This document shows, piece by piece, positions 17,511 through 44,987 of a stretch of 48,004 nt of DNA (positions within the stretch are counted from its first letter, which is position 1; every line of letters starts with the position of its first letter). Under the pieces are notes generated by a model. It saw nothing but the letters and a program-made list of their open reading frames with translations, had not been told where the DNA came from and did not search any database. The translations under genes were made by a program, and so were the position numbers. The stretch lies in the IMG/VR virus record IMGVR_UViG_3300048839_001569, positions 1 through 48,004 of that record; one strand, written 5' to 3'. This DNA comes from a virus.

Positions 17511-17541
17511 TTTATTGCATTGCTTTATCATAGTATATTTG
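17511..17541 (+). promoter_or_regulatory. Promoter for the antirepressor leader
   Basis: TTTA at 17511-17514, a 19-nt spacer and TATATTTG at 17534-17541 match the Bacteroidota -33/-7 arrangement. Unlike the late elements it lacks the GTCC upstream of TTTA. The predicted start is near 17545, just ahead of the structured leader. Confidence 0.55.
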
Positions 17542-17544
17542 TAA

Positions 17545-17640
17545 CTCTATCTGACGATGGCCCCGTCAGTATCTAACCAGGAAACTTAATGCCTTGCCGA
17601 GTAGGGGGCCATCCCGAAAGGCAGGGCTTATTTTTTAACC
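17545..17640 (+). ncRNA. Structured leader or small RNA with loop-loop pairing and terminator
   Basis: Hairpin 1 is CTGACG (17551-17556) with CGTCAG (17564-17569) and loop ATGGCCC. Hairpin 2 is GCCTTGCC (17591-17598) with GGCAGGGC (17620-17627), eight pairs including one G-U, followed by TTATTTTTT, so it resembles an intrinsic terminator. The hairpin-2 loop contains GGGCCAT (17606-17612), a perfect 7-nt complement of loop 1, allowing a kissing interaction. The antirepressor frame begins 35 nt further on. It could be an attenuator for that gene or a stand-alone small RNA. I do not recognise a named family. Confidence 0.6.
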
Positions 17641-17674
17641 AGACCTGCATTGCAAACTTTTAATCTAAATCACT

Positions 17675-18207
17675 ATGAACAAGCGTGTTACAAATTTTCT
17701 GGAATTCAACGGCAAAACCATGCTTTTTTTGTCGGAAAACGGGTGTATTGGGTAGCATTAAAGCCTGTTTGTGAGGCTCTTAATGTTGAATATACCCGCA
17801 TTTTTAAAAACGTGAAGGCCGACCCTATTTTAGGACCTGCATTGGCTATACAGCCAATGCAGATATCCGGCGACGACCAGGTCAGGCAGATGGTTTGCCT
17901 GCCGGAATTTCTGATCTACGGATGGATTTTTTCGATTAAAAGCTCATCGAAGGAACTGATCCTTTACAAACAGGAGTGCTACAAAGCCCTGTTTGAATAC
18001 TTCCATGGAGCCATTACCGCACGCAAAGAACTGATCAAAGAAAAGGCATCAATCCAAAAAGAACGCCTGGCGCTTGAATCAGAACTGCGAAGCACAGTTA
18101 CCTTCAACCGCTTCGAACAACTCAAAGCCAGCGAAGCCAGAATCGGGATCCAACTCAAAAAACTGGACAACGAGGAATTTGAAAACCAGATGACGCTTTT
18201 TTCATGA
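17675..18207 (+). CDS. P22-type antirepressor (P22_AR_N-like), apparent -1 frameshift near 17740
   Basis: The natural start is ATG 17675 (MNKRVTNFLEFNGKTMLFLS, then ENG), but that frame stops at 17755. The rest is in the -1 frame: VYWVALKPVCEALNVEYTRI and on to stop 18207, including MVCLPEFLIYGWIFSI and a C-terminal coiled coil (KEKASIQKERLALESELR). One extra G in the GGG at 17741-17743 would join the halves as ENGVYWVALKP. Alternatively, ribosomes could slip at T-TTT-TTG (17725-17731). The continuous second frame could also start at TTG 17650. P22_AR_N proteins bind and inactivate prophage repressors. A second homologue lies at 29919. It may be a disrupted gene, a base error or programmed frameshifting. 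Confidence 0.65.
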
Positions 18208-19023: not shown

Positions 19024-19053
19024 TTGACTTTCTCGTTTTAAGGATTACCTTTG
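19024..19053 (+). promoter_or_regulatory. Bacteroidota-type promoter
   Basis: TTGAC starts at 19024 and TACCTTTG lies at 19046-19053, with 19 nt between TTG and the -7 box. This is the best-matching host-type promoter in the window. It directs a transcript into the structured leader at 19098-19175. Confidence 0.72.
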
Positions 19054-19097
19054 TAGCGTTCAAATCTATAGTCCAATGCTTAATCAACTTCTACATA

Positions 19098-19175
19098 GGG
19101 GAAAACCCTGTGGCTCTGGTACCCGAAAGGATCCAGCGGTTCTATAGAGCCGGAACAAGCCTCAGGGTTTTTCCC
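19098..19175 (+). ncRNA. Three-way-junction leader RNA
   Basis: The outer stem pairs 19098-19110 (GGGGAAAACCCTG) with 19163-19175 (CAGGGTTTTTCCC), 13 pairs with one G-U. It continues after a mismatch with GGCT/AGCC (19112-19115 with 19158-19161). Inside are two hairpins. One has CTGG/CCAG (19116-19119 with 19133-19136), then CC/GG around CGAAA. The other has CGGTTC/GAGCCG (19137-19142 with 19147-19152). An AGGAGG-containing segment and the ATG at 19192 follow. It may be a cis-regulatory leader. I cannot assign a known riboswitch class. Confidence 0.6.
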
Positions 19176-19191
19176 ATTTAGGAGGTTCAAA

Positions 19192-19434
19192 ATGGCAAGT
19201 CAAAACGATTGCTTGTTACTCACTTCAGATGTGTTCAAATATCTGAAAGACCTGGCCGAAGAGCCGGAAAAATCACAAAGAAACATTTTAAAGGCCATCC
19301 TGGCGCTGCACCAGATGGAATCGGTACGGGAGGACGATTTCTTTCTCCACTCGGTCGATTTCTTTGTTGAGCTCTACAAACTCAACAACCTGCTCACGGC
19401 TCTCATCGAGGCAAAGGAAGGGGGCAAGGCATGA
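19192..19434 (+). CDS. Small helical protein, first gene of a three-gene unit
   Basis: 80 residues, acidic and almost entirely helical, with no cysteine clusters or membrane segment. An AGGAGG sequence about 8 nt upstream is one of the few good Shine-Dalgarno sites in the window. The gene follows a strong host-type promoter and the structured leader, and its stop overlaps the next ATG by 4 nt. Expression from such a promoter next to the integrase suggests a lysogenic or early accessory function. I do not recognise the family. Confidence 0.5.
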   Translation: MASQNDCLLLTSDVFKYLKDLAEEPEKSQRNILKAILALHQMESVREDDFFLHSVDFFVELYKLNNLLTALIEAKEGGKA

Positions 19435-29357: not shown

Positions 29358-29563
29358 AAGTCCTTAAAGCAACGAATTATTTCCGTGAAAGAACACCTTC
29401 TCAGCAACAACAGCTAAAAGCTCATTACGAGCGCATCATCGGCCTTGCGAAGGGCGATATCCCCGGACCGGAAAGTGGAAAATTAAAGCACATGATTCCG
29501 CATTGGGAAAAAGGTTTGAAAATGCTTAATGAAATTATAAACGAAAGGAGACAAAATGTGTAA
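29354..29563 (+). CDS. Small basic phage protein
   Basis: 69 residues from ATG 29354, whose ATGA overlaps the previous stop; 12 more codons are open upstream, but that start would lie inside the previous gene. The protein is basic and helical (RERTPSQQQQLKAHYERIIG; KLKHMIPHWEKGLKMLNEII). Its 3' end overlaps the next gene by 8 nt. There is no known motif. Confidence 0.45.
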   Translation: MKVLKATNYFRERTPSQQQQLKAHYERIIGLAKGDIPGPESGKLKHMIPHWEKGLKMLNEIINERRQNV

Positions 29564-29816
29564 TTGTATTAAAGAATTGGAATATAGGCTATTAAATGCT
29601 TTTCCTGAGAAAAACAAAAAAAAGGTAATATCCTACAGCTTTCCAGGCGGCTTTCTCTTAAATGGTGAACGAATTTATAGTGTACCCCTTATTCAGAAAA
29701 TTAAAGACCAAGAGAAAACATATGAGGTAGATGTAACAATTAGTTATTGCCCATTTTGTGGAGAAGCACTTAGACATCATATTGAAGGTAAACAACAAAC
29801 ACTCGTTCACATGTAA
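29556..29816 (+). CDS. Small zinc-ribbon-like phage protein
   Basis: 86 residues. Cysteines at the N terminus (MCNCIKELE) and the pair CPFCG near residue 70 could bind a zinc ion together, a layout common in small phage proteins with nucleic-acid or protein-binding roles. The middle is beta-rich (SYSFPGGFLLNGERIYSV). It ends 15 nt before the attenuator-like leader of the antirepressor gene, closing this run of small genes. Confidence 0.5.
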   Translation: MCNCIKELEYRLLNAFPEKNKKKVISYSFPGGFLLNGERIYSVPLIQKIKDQEKTYEVDVTISYCPFCGEALRHHIEGKQQTLVHM

Positions 29817-29831
29817 CGAAACTCCCGTGAT

Positions 29832-29905
29832 GACCGGGTGGTTGAAGGCACAACGTTCTTTATTCCGTGCGATCAACCCTTTCAGGTGCCGGAAAGGGTT
29901 TTTTT
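29832..29905 (+). promoter_or_regulatory. Attenuator-like leader of the second antirepressor
   Basis: Hairpin A pairs GGTTGA (29840-29845) with TCAACC (29873-29878) and GCAC (29848-29851) with GTGC (29867-29870). Hairpin B pairs AACCCTTTC (29875-29883) with GAAAGGGTT (29892-29900) and is followed by 7 T, a clear intrinsic terminator. They share 29875-29878, so only one can form at a time. The hairpin-B loop also has GTGCC (29886-29890), complementary to GGCAC (29847-29851). The gene begins at 29919. Confidence 0.65.
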
Positions 29906-29918
29906 AAGAAACCTCTAA

Positions 29919-30497
29919 ATGAAACAGAAAATGGAAACAGTGAAAACAATTGCAAGAGTGAATGATGTTTCGATCGTGATGATCGACAACAATGAACAAA
30001 TGGTGCCGATTCGTCCAATTTGCCAGGCGTTAGGAATTGACGAAGATGTACAATGGAGAAAAATAATGAACGACGAAATTTTAAGTTCAGTTGCCACCCT
30101 GAGCGTGGCAACTGGTGCAGACGAAAAGAGGTATAAAATGAGCTGCATTCCGTTCAAATTTGTGTTTGGATGGTTGTTTACAATCAATCCGAAAAACGTA
30201 AAACCGGAGGCGCAGGAAGCCGTTTCCAAGTATAGGCTTCAATGTTACAACGTTCTTTTCAAACACTTCACAGATCAATCTGAATTCCTTATGCAAAAGC
30301 AGAACGCGCTTGAGAAACAGATCGAAGAGGTTGACAGGATCAGGTTTGATTTTAAGAACACGAAAATGAAGCTGGACGAAGCCAGGCAAATCCTCAACCA
30401 GATCAAGGAGATGACCTTCGAACAGTGGCAGATCAACAAAAGCCAGCTCAAAATTGATTTCCCGGTATCTTCTCCCGATCAGGCCGATGAGGACTAA
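29919..30497 (+). CDS. P22-type antirepressor (P22_AR_N-like), intact
   Basis: 192 residues; ATG 29931 (METVKTIARVND) is a second possible start. It shows the family layout: an N-terminal beta region (DVSIVMIDNNEQMVPIRPIC, then QALGIDEDVQW), the conserved YKMSCIPFKFVFGWLFTINP, then YRLQCYNVLFKHF. A C-terminal coiled coil follows (ALEKQIEEVDRIRFDF). P22_AR_N proteins inactivate phage repressors by binding. It is a distant homologue of the frameshifted gene at 17675. Expression is probably controlled by the attenuator-like leader just upstream. Confidence 0.75.
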   Translation: MKQKMETVKTIARVNDVSIVMIDNNEQMVPIRPICQALGIDEDVQWRKIMNDEILSSVATLSVATGADEKRYKMSCIPFKFVFGWLFTINPKNVKPEAQEAVSKYRLQCYNVLFKHFTDQSEFLMQKQNALEKQIEEVDRIRFDFKNTKMKLDEARQILNQIKEMTFEQWQINKSQLKIDFPVSSPDQADED

Positions 30498-33230: not shown

Positions 33231-35399
33231 ATGAAAAAACTCACGACCCTCGTCCTTGCATTGCTCGGTATCCAGGCATTTGCGCTGGATAAGGACGGTA
33301 AGGTCCAGATGTCAGACGAGCAAATGCAGACCCTGAAGACCGAATTCGGCGACCAGTTCACCGAAAAGTTCATCCAGGCAGTCAACAAAGACCCACAGGG
33401 CAATGCCACAGATCCCGTGGCCGTGACGGAAATGGTTGAGGCCATGACCGAGCGGCTTCAAACCCTTGCGCTGCAGAACCAGCAGCTCCTTTCGTCCAGA
33501 CAGAAAACGGAATCCGACCTTATGGCTGAAAAAGCCGAGAATACCCGTCTTAATGGTGTGATCACCGAGAAGGATGGAATCATCGCGACCCTGTCGAAAA
33601 AACCCGAAGAAGAACCGCCTGCCAACAACACGAACATGAAAACCGACCCAAAATCCTGGACACCGTCCGGAAAAGATTCCCACCTGTTCGGAATGAGCGG
33701 GATGGGCTTTTTTGCTATCGACGAGGCACACCCGTACAACCGCCGCGCATATGCAGCCATCGCCGCCCAACACGGCCTGGAGATCATTGCCCCCCGTGCC
33801 GCGAGTTCGCTTGACTATTCATCCCTGAAAACCGACCTCGGGGAATACTACCGCGTCCGTAAACAGGAGCGGATTCAGAGTTTCCTCCAGAGCCTTCCCT
33901 CCCTGACCTCCATCTTCCCGCTGGAATCCGGATATCAGGATCAGGCCGCCCTGGTGAACTTCTTCATCACCAATGAGTTTTCCCAGGCTGATTCCACTGC
34001 CCTTGGCAGTTCATTCGACAACGTGGTCAAAGGCGCGTACAAGTTCGAGCCTGAAGTGCTGACCATGTACGACGTGATGTTCGCCCACAAGTTCACCCAG
34101 CTCAAGGAGCTCGAAAAGAACTGGCTGGGATACCTCAACCGCGAAGGATCATCCACCATGAAGTGGTCGTTCATCGAGTTCATTCTCGTTGAAACAGCCA
34201 AAAAGCTCAAGAACGAGCAGGAGCTTCGCCGCATCCGCGGGATCCGCAAGAACCCGACTGTCAACGTTGCCGGTTCCTCGATGCAGGCTGCAAATGGTCT
34301 GATGAAGTTCATCAAGAACCAGATCGCAGCTTTCAAAATCAAGCCCTTCGCCATGGGTGAATGGACATCTTCGACTATTGCCGCCTATGTGGCTGACGGA
34401 ACGAAGCTGGTTCCGGAAGTTCTCCGGGATTCTGGCCGTGTGGTACTCTACATGAGCACCGACGCCCTGAGCGATTACCACAAAAATCTCGAAACGCTCT
34501 ATGGCGTGAACCAGGACTACAAGCCGAACCTCTCCTACGTGAAGGAGTATCCATCCGTGAAGATCGTTACGGTACCGAACATGGCGCCCTCCAAGCGCAT
34601 GATCTGGACCATCGAGGGCAACATTGCCCTGTTCGAGGATCAGCCCGGTGAGATGCTCAACTTCAACATCGAGCAGCAGGACTGGAGCCTGAAGGTTTGG
34701 TCGAACTGGCGTGAATCCGTATGGGCCTACATGGTAGGACGCAAGTACTCATCTGATGCCGAGATGCCGGACGATTACTCAACCCAGCTGATCTTCTGCA
34801 ACGATGTGGATGAGCCTGCCGATTTCTACATCGCCATGGATGCCAATGACACCACCCCATCGGTGGCAAATCATACCTCCCTGGTGACTGTCGCCAATTC
34901 ACAGGCCACTGCCATCACCGACATCGATGATGCGGCCGTTGGTCAGGAGATCAGGCTGAAGTGTGGTAATTCCACAAACGCTTCCACCATTGCAGCCAGC
35001 GGAAAGTTCTCCCTGCTGACCGCGGCATGGAATCCTTCGGTGGGAGATGTGCTCTATCTGAAGAAACGTTCCGATGGCAAGTTCATCGAGCTCAAGCGCG
35101 AGAACGTGACCAGCACCGCCATTGCCTTCACTGCCAATGACACCACCCCGAGCGTAACCGGTGGCGATAAGTTCATCACTGTTGCCAACTCCGGCGCCAC
35201 CGCCATCACCAACTTCGACGATGCAGTCACCGGCAAGGTGTACACCATCTACGGAGGATCCAGCACCAACGCTGCAACAATTGCCAACAGCGGCAACTTC
35301 GTGCTGACCGCGGCAATGACCCTGAGCGCAGGTACCTGGATCACCCTGCAGAAATCTGCATCCGATTCCAAGTTCTACGAAATCAGCCGCAGCGCATAG
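33231..35399 (+). CDS. Major capsid protein with N-terminal scaffold region and C-terminal repeated domain
   Basis: 722 residues. The first 20 (MKKLTTLVLALLGIQAFALD) look like a signal peptide, but the helical, acidic region up to about 130 suggests an internal scaffold removed by the S49 protease. Residues about 135-520 are the capsid body (from about MGFFAIDEAHPYN onward). The last 190 hold two tandem copies of a domain of about 90 residues, each beginning NDTTPSV and with STNA.TIA.SG in the middle. The same kind of domain ends the next gene. Decoration of the capsid surface is a reasonable inference. It starts 2 nt after the protease stop. Confidence 0.75.
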   Translation: MKKLTTLVLALLGIQAFALDKDGKVQMSDEQMQTLKTEFGDQFTEKFIQAVNKDPQGNATDPVAVTEMVEAMTERLQTLALQNQQLLSSRQKTESDLMAEKAENTRLNGVITEKDGIIATLSKKPEEEPPANNTNMKTDPKSWTPSGKDSHLFGMSGMGFFAIDEAHPYNRRAYAAIAAQHGLEIIAPRAASSLDYSSLKTDLGEYYRVRKQERIQSFLQSLPSLTSIFPLESGYQDQAALVNFFITNEFSQADSTALGSSFDNVVKGAYKFEPEVLTMYDVMFAHKFTQLKELEKNWLGYLNREGSSTMKWSFIEFILVETAKKLKNEQELRRIRGIRKNPTVNVAGSSMQAANGLMKFIKNQIAAFKIKPFAMGEWTSSTIAAYVADGTKLVPEVLRDSGRVVLYMSTDALSDYHKNLETLYGVNQDYKPNLSYVKEYPSVKIVTVPNMAPSKRMIWTIEGNIALFEDQPGEMLNFNIEQQDWSLKVWSNWRESVWAYMVGRKYSSDAEMPDDYSTQLIFCNDVDEPADFYIAMDANDTTPSVANHTSLVTVANSQATAITDIDDAAVGQEIRLKCGNSTNASTIAASGKFSLLTAAWNPSVGDVLYLKKRSDGKFIELKRENVTSTAIAFTANDTTPSVTGGDKFITVANSGATAITNFDDAVTGKVYTIYGGSSTNAATIANSGNFVLTAAMTLSAGTWITLQKSASDSKFYEISRSA

Positions 35400-43789: not shown

Positions 43790-44987
43790 CCAGGTAAATG
43801 CAAAAGGGCACCTATCAGATTGGAAGGTGGGTGCCCTTTTCATGGAAGCCGGAACAGGAAAAACAAGGATAGCAGTGGAAATCGCAAATGAAACAAATTG
43901 CGATTTAATTGTATGGATAGGCCCATTGCAGACTCTTCGACAAAAGTTTAACGAATCAACCGTAATACATGAAATCGAGCGTTGGGGAGGGTTCAATGCA
44001 AATGTGATTTACACTGGGATAGAGAGTTTGCAAAGTTCAGACAGAATTTACATGAATTTGCGAAACAGCATTATTTCTGCATTAAATCCCATGATCATCG
44101 TTGATGAAAGCTTGAAAATTAAAAATGCAGATGCTAAAAGAACAAAACGATTGTTGGAATTGTCAAATCATGCAAAATATAAGCTAATCCTAAATGGAAC
44201 CCCTATTACAAGAAATCTCTTGGATTTAAAAACCCAAATGGATTTCCTTTCGTGCAGTATTTTAAATATGAGCGATACAGAGTATAAAAATACCTTCTGC
44301 AAATACATGAGGGTAACAAAATACTTTGGAGGTAACAAAAGGTACACAAAGGAATTTATTACTGGCTTTGAAAACATTGATTATTTGTACAGTTTAATAA
44401 GACATTATGTCTTTGAGTGTGATCTTAATCTATCAGTTAGTCAGATGTACGCTACAATCAGATATGCTATTTCAGATGACCTACTTGATGAATATCAAAG
44501 GTTAAAAGAAAAGTATTTGGATGATGAAATGATGCAGTGGAGAAATAACAATATATTTCTTGAATTAACTCAAAAGATGCAGCACATATATTGCTGTACT
44601 GACGATAAATTTTTAGCATGTGAAAATCTGTTCAAAGAAATTGATCAGGAGCGCACAATCATTTTTTGTAAGTTTATAAAAAGCAGAATAGAATGTGAAA
44701 AGAGATTTCCCAAGGCAACAGTTCTCAGCTACCAAAAGGAATCGTTTGGACTTAATTTACAGCATCTTTCAAATACGATTTACTTCGATAAAAATTGGGA
44801 TTATGCACTGAGAATTCAAAGCGGAAGACGGACATTCAGGACCGGTCAAGAGTATAATTGCAGGTATTTTGATCTTACCGGAAATGTAGGACTTGAGCTG
44901 TTGATAGATGCTAATATAAAAAAGAAGACAAGTATGGCTGAATACTTTAAGGGAAAAACAAAAACAGATTTAAAGAAAGTATTATGA
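43752..44987 (+). CDS. Compact SNF2-type helicase-like ATPase
   Basis: 411 residues from ATG 43752. SNF2 proteins move along or remodel DNA using ATP. Motif I is MEAGTGKT (31-38), motif II is DESLKIKN (Asp118-Glu119-Ser120 in place of DEAH), motif III is LNGTPITRN, motif V-like is SFGLNLQHLSNTIYFD, and motif VI is QSGRRTFRTGQ (about 354-364). It lacks extra N- or C-terminal domains and is about half the usual size. It overlaps the upstream gene and is ATGA-coupled to the PP-loop gene. The region is A+T-rich compared with the structural genes. Confidence 0.8.
   Translation: MLLEEEKARLLPDQVNAKGHLSDWKVGALFMEAGTGKTRIAVEIANETNCDLIVWIGPLQTLRQKFNESTVIHEIERWGGFNANVIYTGIESLQSSDRIYMNLRNSIISALNPMIIVDESLKIKNADAKRTKRLLELSNHAKYKLILNGTPITRNLLDLKTQMDFLSCSILNMSDTEYKNTFCKYMRVTKYFGGNKRYTKEFITGFENIDYLYSLIRHYVFECDLNLSVSQMYATIRYAISDDLLDEYQRLKEKYLDDEMMQWRNNNIFLELTQKMQHIYCCTDDKFLACENLFKEIDQERTIIFCKFIKSRIECEKRFPKATVLSYQKESFGLNLQHLSNTIYFDKNWDYALRIQSGRRTFRTGQEYNCRYFDLTGNVGLELLIDANIKKKTSMAEYFKGKTKTDLKKVL

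Follow-up and report, generated by a model that had tools for sequence, protein, structure and literature searches.

The window analyzed here is a whole 48,004-base virus record. A protein encoded at 33231-35399 is 47% identical over its full length to a protein of Bacteroides phage BT-TP2 and resembles, less closely, proteins of Cellulophaga, Flavobacterium and Porphyromonas phages; the host is therefore probably a Bacteroidota bacterium. The window further encodes an integrase and a weak match to a Cro/C1-type HTH, which together point to a temperate phage. At 29919-30497, an intact reading frame matches the antirepressor domain P22_AR_N (PF10547, 9.3e-27) and, in PHROGs, the Ant family phrog_524 (5.3e-30). 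Comparison with two related loci (L015 and L085) indicates that the start matching the relatives (METK..) is probably 29931, not 29919. This gene and its leader comprise the following features:

29824-29838, + strand: small CCCG/CGGG hairpin (predicted fold), upstream of hairpin A
29840-29878, + strand: hairpin A, target-like, GGTTGA/TCAACC with an upper GCAC/GTGC stem
29847-29851, + strand: GGCAC, putative kissing site in hairpin A, complement of the B loop
29875-29905, + strand: hairpin B, intrinsic-terminator-like, with a 9-bp stem, an 8-nt loop and 7 T
29886-29890, + strand: GTGCC, putative antisense element in the B loop
29919-30497, + strand: antirepressor ORF (P22_AR_N, phrog_524 Ant), likely true start 29931

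The hairpin elements from which the initial annotation derived a two-hairpin attenuator are thus all certain to exist where it placed them. In hairpin A, GGTTGA (29840-29845) pairs with TCAACC (29873-29878) and GCAC (29848-29851) with GTGC (29867-29870), whereas hairpin B is built by pairing of 29875-29883 with 29892-29900 around the loop AGGTGCCG. Both the sharing of 29875-29878 between the 3' arm of A and the 5' arm of B and the complementarity of the B-loop GTGCC to GGCAC in hairpin A were confirmed, so that the leader reads as A arm, 1 base, site, A arm, B arm, 2 bases, complement, 1 base, B arm. Hairpin B has the shape of an intrinsic terminator, with a 9-bp stem containing 4 G-C pairs that runs at once into a U tract (T at 29899-29905), which suggests that it terminates transcription. 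As annotated, it stands directly before the intact antirepressor, the end of the U tract lying 13 nt from 29919 and 25 nt from 29931, and relatives keep such a hairpin. No TAnnTTTG box, the Bacteroidetes promoter consensus, was found on the + strand of 29500-29940, and the antirepressor is therefore most likely reached by read-through of hairpin B.

Hairpin A folds over 43 nt with -13.5 kcal/mol, matched by 4 of 200 shuffles, and hairpin B with -11.4 kcal/mol, matched by 6 of 200, while the stability of the entire 141-nt leader is not unusual (z -0.87). Further predicted pairings would engage the same bases: an extension of the 29824-29838 hairpin competes for GGTT at 29840-29843, and GGCAC itself can alternatively pair within hairpin A. 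Folding of the growing transcript favored complete hairpin A until 29897 and the terminator from 29900 onwards. In the final fold, the terminator state reached -25.2 kcal/mol and complete A with a shortened B -21.9 kcal/mol, loop-loop pairing being left out of both values. Because the terminator state is the more stable one, the two hairpins would compete, but unevenly.

These properties bear on a plain attenuator, in which hairpin A, when complete, would act as an antiterminator by withholding AACC from the terminator, the position of a ribosome or a ligand decides, and the loop complementarity is due to chance. The 4-nt overlap, the order in which the competing folds prevail and the stability of A alone (above that of 196 of 200 shuffles) are in line with it, whereas the advantage of about 3 kcal/mol for the terminator state is not. 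Neither of its two signals, both put forward in the initial annotation, is favored by the data. We rejected a ligand riboswitch, since no riboswitch family matched; indeed, Rfam returned no C4-clan, riboswitch or leader family at 29500-30200 even at a relaxed threshold, where the only matches fell far below cut-off. Likewise, a ribosome-position switch was rejected on the grounds that the upstream ORF stops at 29816, 23 nt 5' of hairpin A (though in two relatives, L085 and L094, the site falls in the last codons of such an ORF). The remaining proposal, a small RNA (which, we suggest, may be the terminated leader itself), fits the RNA-RNA recognition to which the comparisons below point.

We searched for relatives of the leader and of the gene that it precedes. 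The leader had no blastn match in INPHARED and the exact terminator sequence none in viral contigs; the antirepressor's own peptides found no close relative, and none was verified for a second antirepressor of the window (see below). Antirepressor relatives were reached only through a four-sequence alignment (A1), which yielded 80 loci from viruses and 80 from genomes; a protein search was positive in 8 of 393 genomes. Upstream regions were inspected at 104 of the 160 loci, and many of these leaders lacked a hairpin; any terminator-like match was present in 33 of 120 antirepressor leaders, many of these being AT-rich. By sequence, then, such a unit is absent from most antirepressor leaders.

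Among the relatives, those nearest in protein sequence (L085-L098, 56-65% identity) share with the 29832-29918 leader an identical order of elements at similar spacing; in these relatives it runs AACC, 1 base, CCCTTG or CCCTTA, about 11 bases, GGTT, and then a hairpin, of 10 bp in most, whose 8-base loop ends in CAAGGG or TAAGGG and which stands 18-34 bases before the start codon. A clear T tract follows in some leaders of this type, for example L094 and L308. In an alignment of 12 sequences, the proposed A stem, kissing helix and B stem formed standard pairs in 99.6% of 240 cells, and double changes affected 4 of 20 pairs (3 of the B stem and 1 of the kissing helix), whereas slid-partner controls paired in 28-58% of cells with zero double changes. 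Within the L085 set, 1 of 6 kissing pairs varies, possibly through one event. The compensatory changes anticipated by the initial annotation therefore occur in related leaders; for the leader at 29832-29918 there is no covariation because no homologue of it was found. The CCCTTG kissing site of L085 and L094 coincides in part with the final codons of an upstream ORF, whose translation could mask the site.

In these closest relatives, the 3' arm of A ends before the 5' arm of B begins, yet the complement between loop and site is kept. The overlap of arms is thus special to the copy in the window and is not supported as the main principle of the switch geometry, of which the complement between B loop and upstream hairpin is the part that recurs. 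Together with the fold energies and the lack of support for either signal, this makes the plain attenuator an unlikely explanation.

Exchange of loop and site was also evident elsewhere. A Flavobacterium contig carries two antirepressor loci about 15 kb apart (L112 and L132, the latter with an interrupted antirepressor frame), whose nearly identical leaders differ in an exchanged pair, CTCCC/GGGAG versus CTACC/GGTAG. Among 299 genomes of its genus, the L112 leader matched only itself and this paralogue over most of its length, other matches being short fragments near threshold. On these comparisons, selection for loop/site pairing is reasonably supported for the L085-L098 and L112/L132 leaders. 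At L036, GTGGCAGTT pairs with AACTGCCAC (p 0.004). Four further leaders share a distinctive hairpin with AGTA opposite GAA, presumably a sarcin-ricin-like internal loop, and combine it with different pairs: AATGCAG/CTGCATT in L015, GATGCCG/CGGCATC in L016, GATGCAA/TTGCATC in L031 and GACGCAT/ATGCGTC in L139. Separately, L025 and L054 carry long branched hairpins about 150 nt before the antirepressor start that resemble the c4 cloverleaf by eye and had no Rfam match.

The window itself contains two further units of comparable design:

17534-17541, + strand: TAnnTTTG promoter-like box of the second unit
17551-17569, + strand: second-unit hairpin A, CTGACG-ATGGCCC-CGTCAG
17591-17636, + strand: second-unit hairpin B, GAGTA/GAAA internal loop and T tract
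17650-18207, + strand: second antirepressor (P22_AR_N), listed open frame
19046-19080, + strand: third unit, TAnnTTTG box (19046-19053) and weak hairpin with the site TCTATAG (19065-19071)
19103-19172, + strand: third unit, Rfam c4-2 RNA, 42.8 bits (cut-off 41)

In the second unit (17551-17636), hairpin B (GAGTAGG..CCCGAAA) carries 9 nt complementary to its hairpin A, and a kissing-hairpin scan retrieved it as the only + strand match in the window with at least 6 T in 7. It belongs to the GAGUAGG/CGAAA class described below and precedes the second antirepressor (P22_AR_N, 1.7e-11). The latter has an upstream ATG at 17675 in another frame and is interrupted near a T7 tract (17724-17730), which may reflect phase variation, slippage or an error in sequencing. 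At a relaxed Rfam threshold, matches to this unit lay far below cut-off. In the third unit, the c4-2 loop CTATAGA (19142-19148) is complementary over 7 nt to 19065-19071; this c4-2 has the upstream site alone, with no downstream site, and precedes an 80-aa ORF without Pfam match (region 19046-19434). The three pairs in the window are unrelated to each other, the longest cross match being 3 nt.

How far the GGCAC/GUGCC complement exceeds chance depends on what is asked of it. Alone, a 5-nt complement between loop and upstream sequence has p 0.237 over a 110-nt search, and p 0.049 when distance is restricted. When hairpin A at the spacing of the relatives is included, a constraint chosen post hoc, after the relatives were seen, the value is 0.011 over 5000 dinucleotide shuffles; of 13690 real 89-mers taken from the phage, 143 contain the combination. 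Function of this pair is therefore argued from that post hoc geometry (p about 0.01) and from the company it keeps. Slightly less likely than the plain attenuator is that hairpin B is simply an ordinary, somewhat leaky constitutive terminator for the upstream genes, letting some transcripts through into the antirepressor, in which case hairpin A and the loop match would have no function: the p value of 0.237 for the loop match alone agrees with it, as do the 6 terminator-like sites in the region versus a shuffle mean of 4.6, but it is opposed by the p of about 0.01 with geometry and by the two other window units and the relatives, which have the same geometry. We consider it improbable that the leader chiefly gives rise to a small RNA acting in trans on an mRNA elsewhere, of another phage or of this one, with the antirepressor being incidental. 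The occurrence of loop complements in the window (GGCACCT once, at 43807; CGGCAC at four places) is in line with it, but matches this short are expected by chance, and related units precede regulated genes and pair with their own leader. GGCAC is absent between 29906 and the start codons at 29919 and 29931, leaving no second site at the antirepressor start, and 6-nt complements of the B loop are located elsewhere.

The case for kissing hairpin loops as the working part of such leaders is strongest in the GAGUAGG/CGAAA sister class. We scanned viral contigs with the patterns GGAGTAGG-N8-12-CCGAAACC and GAGTAGGG-N5-9-CCCCGAAA, which put no condition on the loop or the upstream sequence. The scan gave 131 matches, 33 of them with an outer stem of at least 6 bp and a T-rich tail. 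A perfect 6-8 nt loop complement was found upstream in 32 of these 33 terminator-shaped members, the sole exception (L315) being cut by the contig end. Slightly looser limits yielded 37 matches, reduced to 26 nonredundant members; 25 of them had the complement, in 21 different sequences, while pairs swapped between members as a control (650 pairs) reached 6 nt in 6.8% and 7 nt in 0.3%. Flanking bases closed a stem of at least 4 bp around the site in 25/25 cases, versus 48% with shuffled flanks. A TAnnTTTG box lay upstream in 16 of the 26 members (at 41-58 nt in 12), and the site was repeated just before the start codon in two. A complement was also present in 28 of 94 matches without terminator shape, some of which do belong to the class but have a bulge in the outer stem, for example L351, a repeat of the L031 contig. 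These sequence data strongly support selection of sister-class leaders for loop/site pairing. The strong statistics belong to this class and not to the 29832-29918 leader.

The class precedes genes of several kinds. Among 24 downstream proteins of at least 60 aa (20 scanned with Pfam, 10 with PHROGs, 7 with both and L345 with neither), six resemble replication initiators or helicase loaders (L319, L392, L394, L437, L363 and L388), as do, more weakly, L330 and L419. Others match HTH_36 (L321), a primase-helicase (L318), VapE/primase (L391), a helicase (L355), Mom modification (L328), HNH (L410; weakly L366 and L380) and GIY-YIG/NUMOD3 (L315); the remaining genes received no function from these scans. 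Since it precedes Mom-like, GIY-YIG and HNH genes (L328, L315, L366, L380 and L410), the class may travel with homing endonucleases. A wider kissing-hairpin scan of the collected loci returned 366 matches, 51 of them with at least 6 T in 7, mostly away from antirepressors.

No class member matched Rfam 15 at its cut-offs (17 + 15 loci scanned, both sets including plain leaders). A covariance model built from two members (R1) found L016 (E 0.006) and missed the second unit of the window and L139; the loops, being unequal, prevented a MAFFT alignment for additional models. Cellular genomes showed no enrichment of the exact pattern: it matched 2 of 395 in the Bacteroidota, against 10 for a reversed control, and none of 6 others, a result that lends no support to prevalence in prophages. 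The leader at 29832-29918 shares the class layout of upstream-hairpin loop complement, T tract and gene, with 5 nt, and its hairpin B is plain, lacking the GAGTA/GAAA internal loop. It is thus a plain-hairpin variant with five pairing bases, for which no homologue was found and which lies outside the Rfam C4 clan.

The c4-2 RNA offers a parallel. Of 395 Bacteroidota genomes, 11 match its model (RF02944), 10 of them above cut-off, with up to 6 copies each. At 30 loci, a loop complement of at least 6 nt was found upstream in 28, downstream in 25 and on both sides in 24, against 27% and 29% in swapped-pair controls. Bacteroidota c4-2 therefore has a P1-like two-site layout, and in most cases an ORF of about 77 aa follows it. 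Loops differ among L173-L202, with matching sites upstream and near the start codon of this ORF (MSTNTLSKETELRL...). A 2017 paper on 224 candidate RNAs is reportedly the source of c4-2. We found no description of the sister class in the literature searched, which was mostly open-access and did not cover that presumed source.

Three known phage systems resemble the leader in part. Passages of PMC4825925 describe the P4 CI RNA, complementary to seqA upstream and seqC downstream, as a leader RNA that keeps the P4 replication genes off through premature termination. A complement to a site just upstream may be a common trait, although the 5 nt of GGCAC/GUGCC do not reach significance unless the geometry is included, and sister-class units also stand before replication genes; in contrast, no sequence relation is shown, site and complement are hairpin loops here, hairpin B is itself terminator-like, and a second site downstream occurs in only 2 of 26 nonredundant sister-class members and not in the window unit. 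In P1/P7, c4 is an antisense RNA that acts on ant mRNA through pairing sequences probably in loops, according to a portion of PMC12197685; c4 and c4-a1b1 are also among the RNAs named in part of PMC2864571. The leader likewise lies upstream of an antirepressor, and c4-2 itself is present in the window, but the leader is outside the C4 clan (C4, c4-a1b1 and c4-2) and has one simple hairpin, with no site at the antirepressor start codon. Finally, IsrK is, in further passages of PMC4825925, a terminated leader RNA before the Gifsy-1 antirepressor anrP, with read-through into the gene and trans action. Unlike what we propose, IsrK is described there as activating translation of the read-through mRNA, its complementary RNA lying downstream; the window leader has no Rfam match. 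Two-hairpin attenuators and riboswitches share the alternative hairpin that overlaps a terminator arm, whereas no aptamer family is found here and the recurring feature is loop-loop complementarity.

Taken together, the elements in the window, the layout and compensatory loop/site exchanges of the relatives and the two further units lead us to favor, with a probability of about 0.55, a kissing-hairpin attenuator that keeps the antirepressor off. We propose that it works in the manner of P4 CI RNA or P1 c4, rather than as a plain two-hairpin or ligand switch. Polymerase arriving from the upstream genes would transcribe first hairpin A and next hairpin B, usually stopping at the U tract of the latter. 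The B loop GUGCC would recognize GGCAC of hairpin A either on the same nascent transcript (in cis) or when supplied by previously terminated copies of the leader RNA (in trans). Abundant leader RNA, as in a lysogen, would hold the leader in the stopping state, whereas entry of the phage into a cell without leader RNA, or a signal that breaks the pairing or favors complete A, would allow transcription into the antirepressor, which would then inactivate the repressor. Both the sign of this effect and the action in trans are inferred by analogy with the P4 CI and P1 c4 RNAs. The overlap of arms in the window copy would add direct competition between A and B.

The feature that recurs is a loop recognizing a hairpin just upstream, coupled to a terminator-like stem, in units that stand before genes launching lytic growth or calling for tight control for other reasons. 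To our knowledge, little is known of lysogeny control in temperate Bacteroidota phages. We see about even odds that Bacteroidota phages have an undescribed family of small kissing-hairpin terminator RNAs serving as immunity modules with sequence specificity. Each module would join a target hairpin and a matching-loop terminator to a promoter or to an operon leader; exchange of 5-9 complementary bases would alter its specificity, allowing several orthogonal switches per phage. If so, the window would hold three modules, and such switches would act on antirepressors, replication genes and homing endonucleases. The sister class makes a clear, testable RNA family. Should the leaders work as proposed, immunity would be readable from short loop sequences in genomes, mutual exclusion between phages would become predictable, and a set of mutually orthogonal RNA regulators would become available for Bacteroidota.
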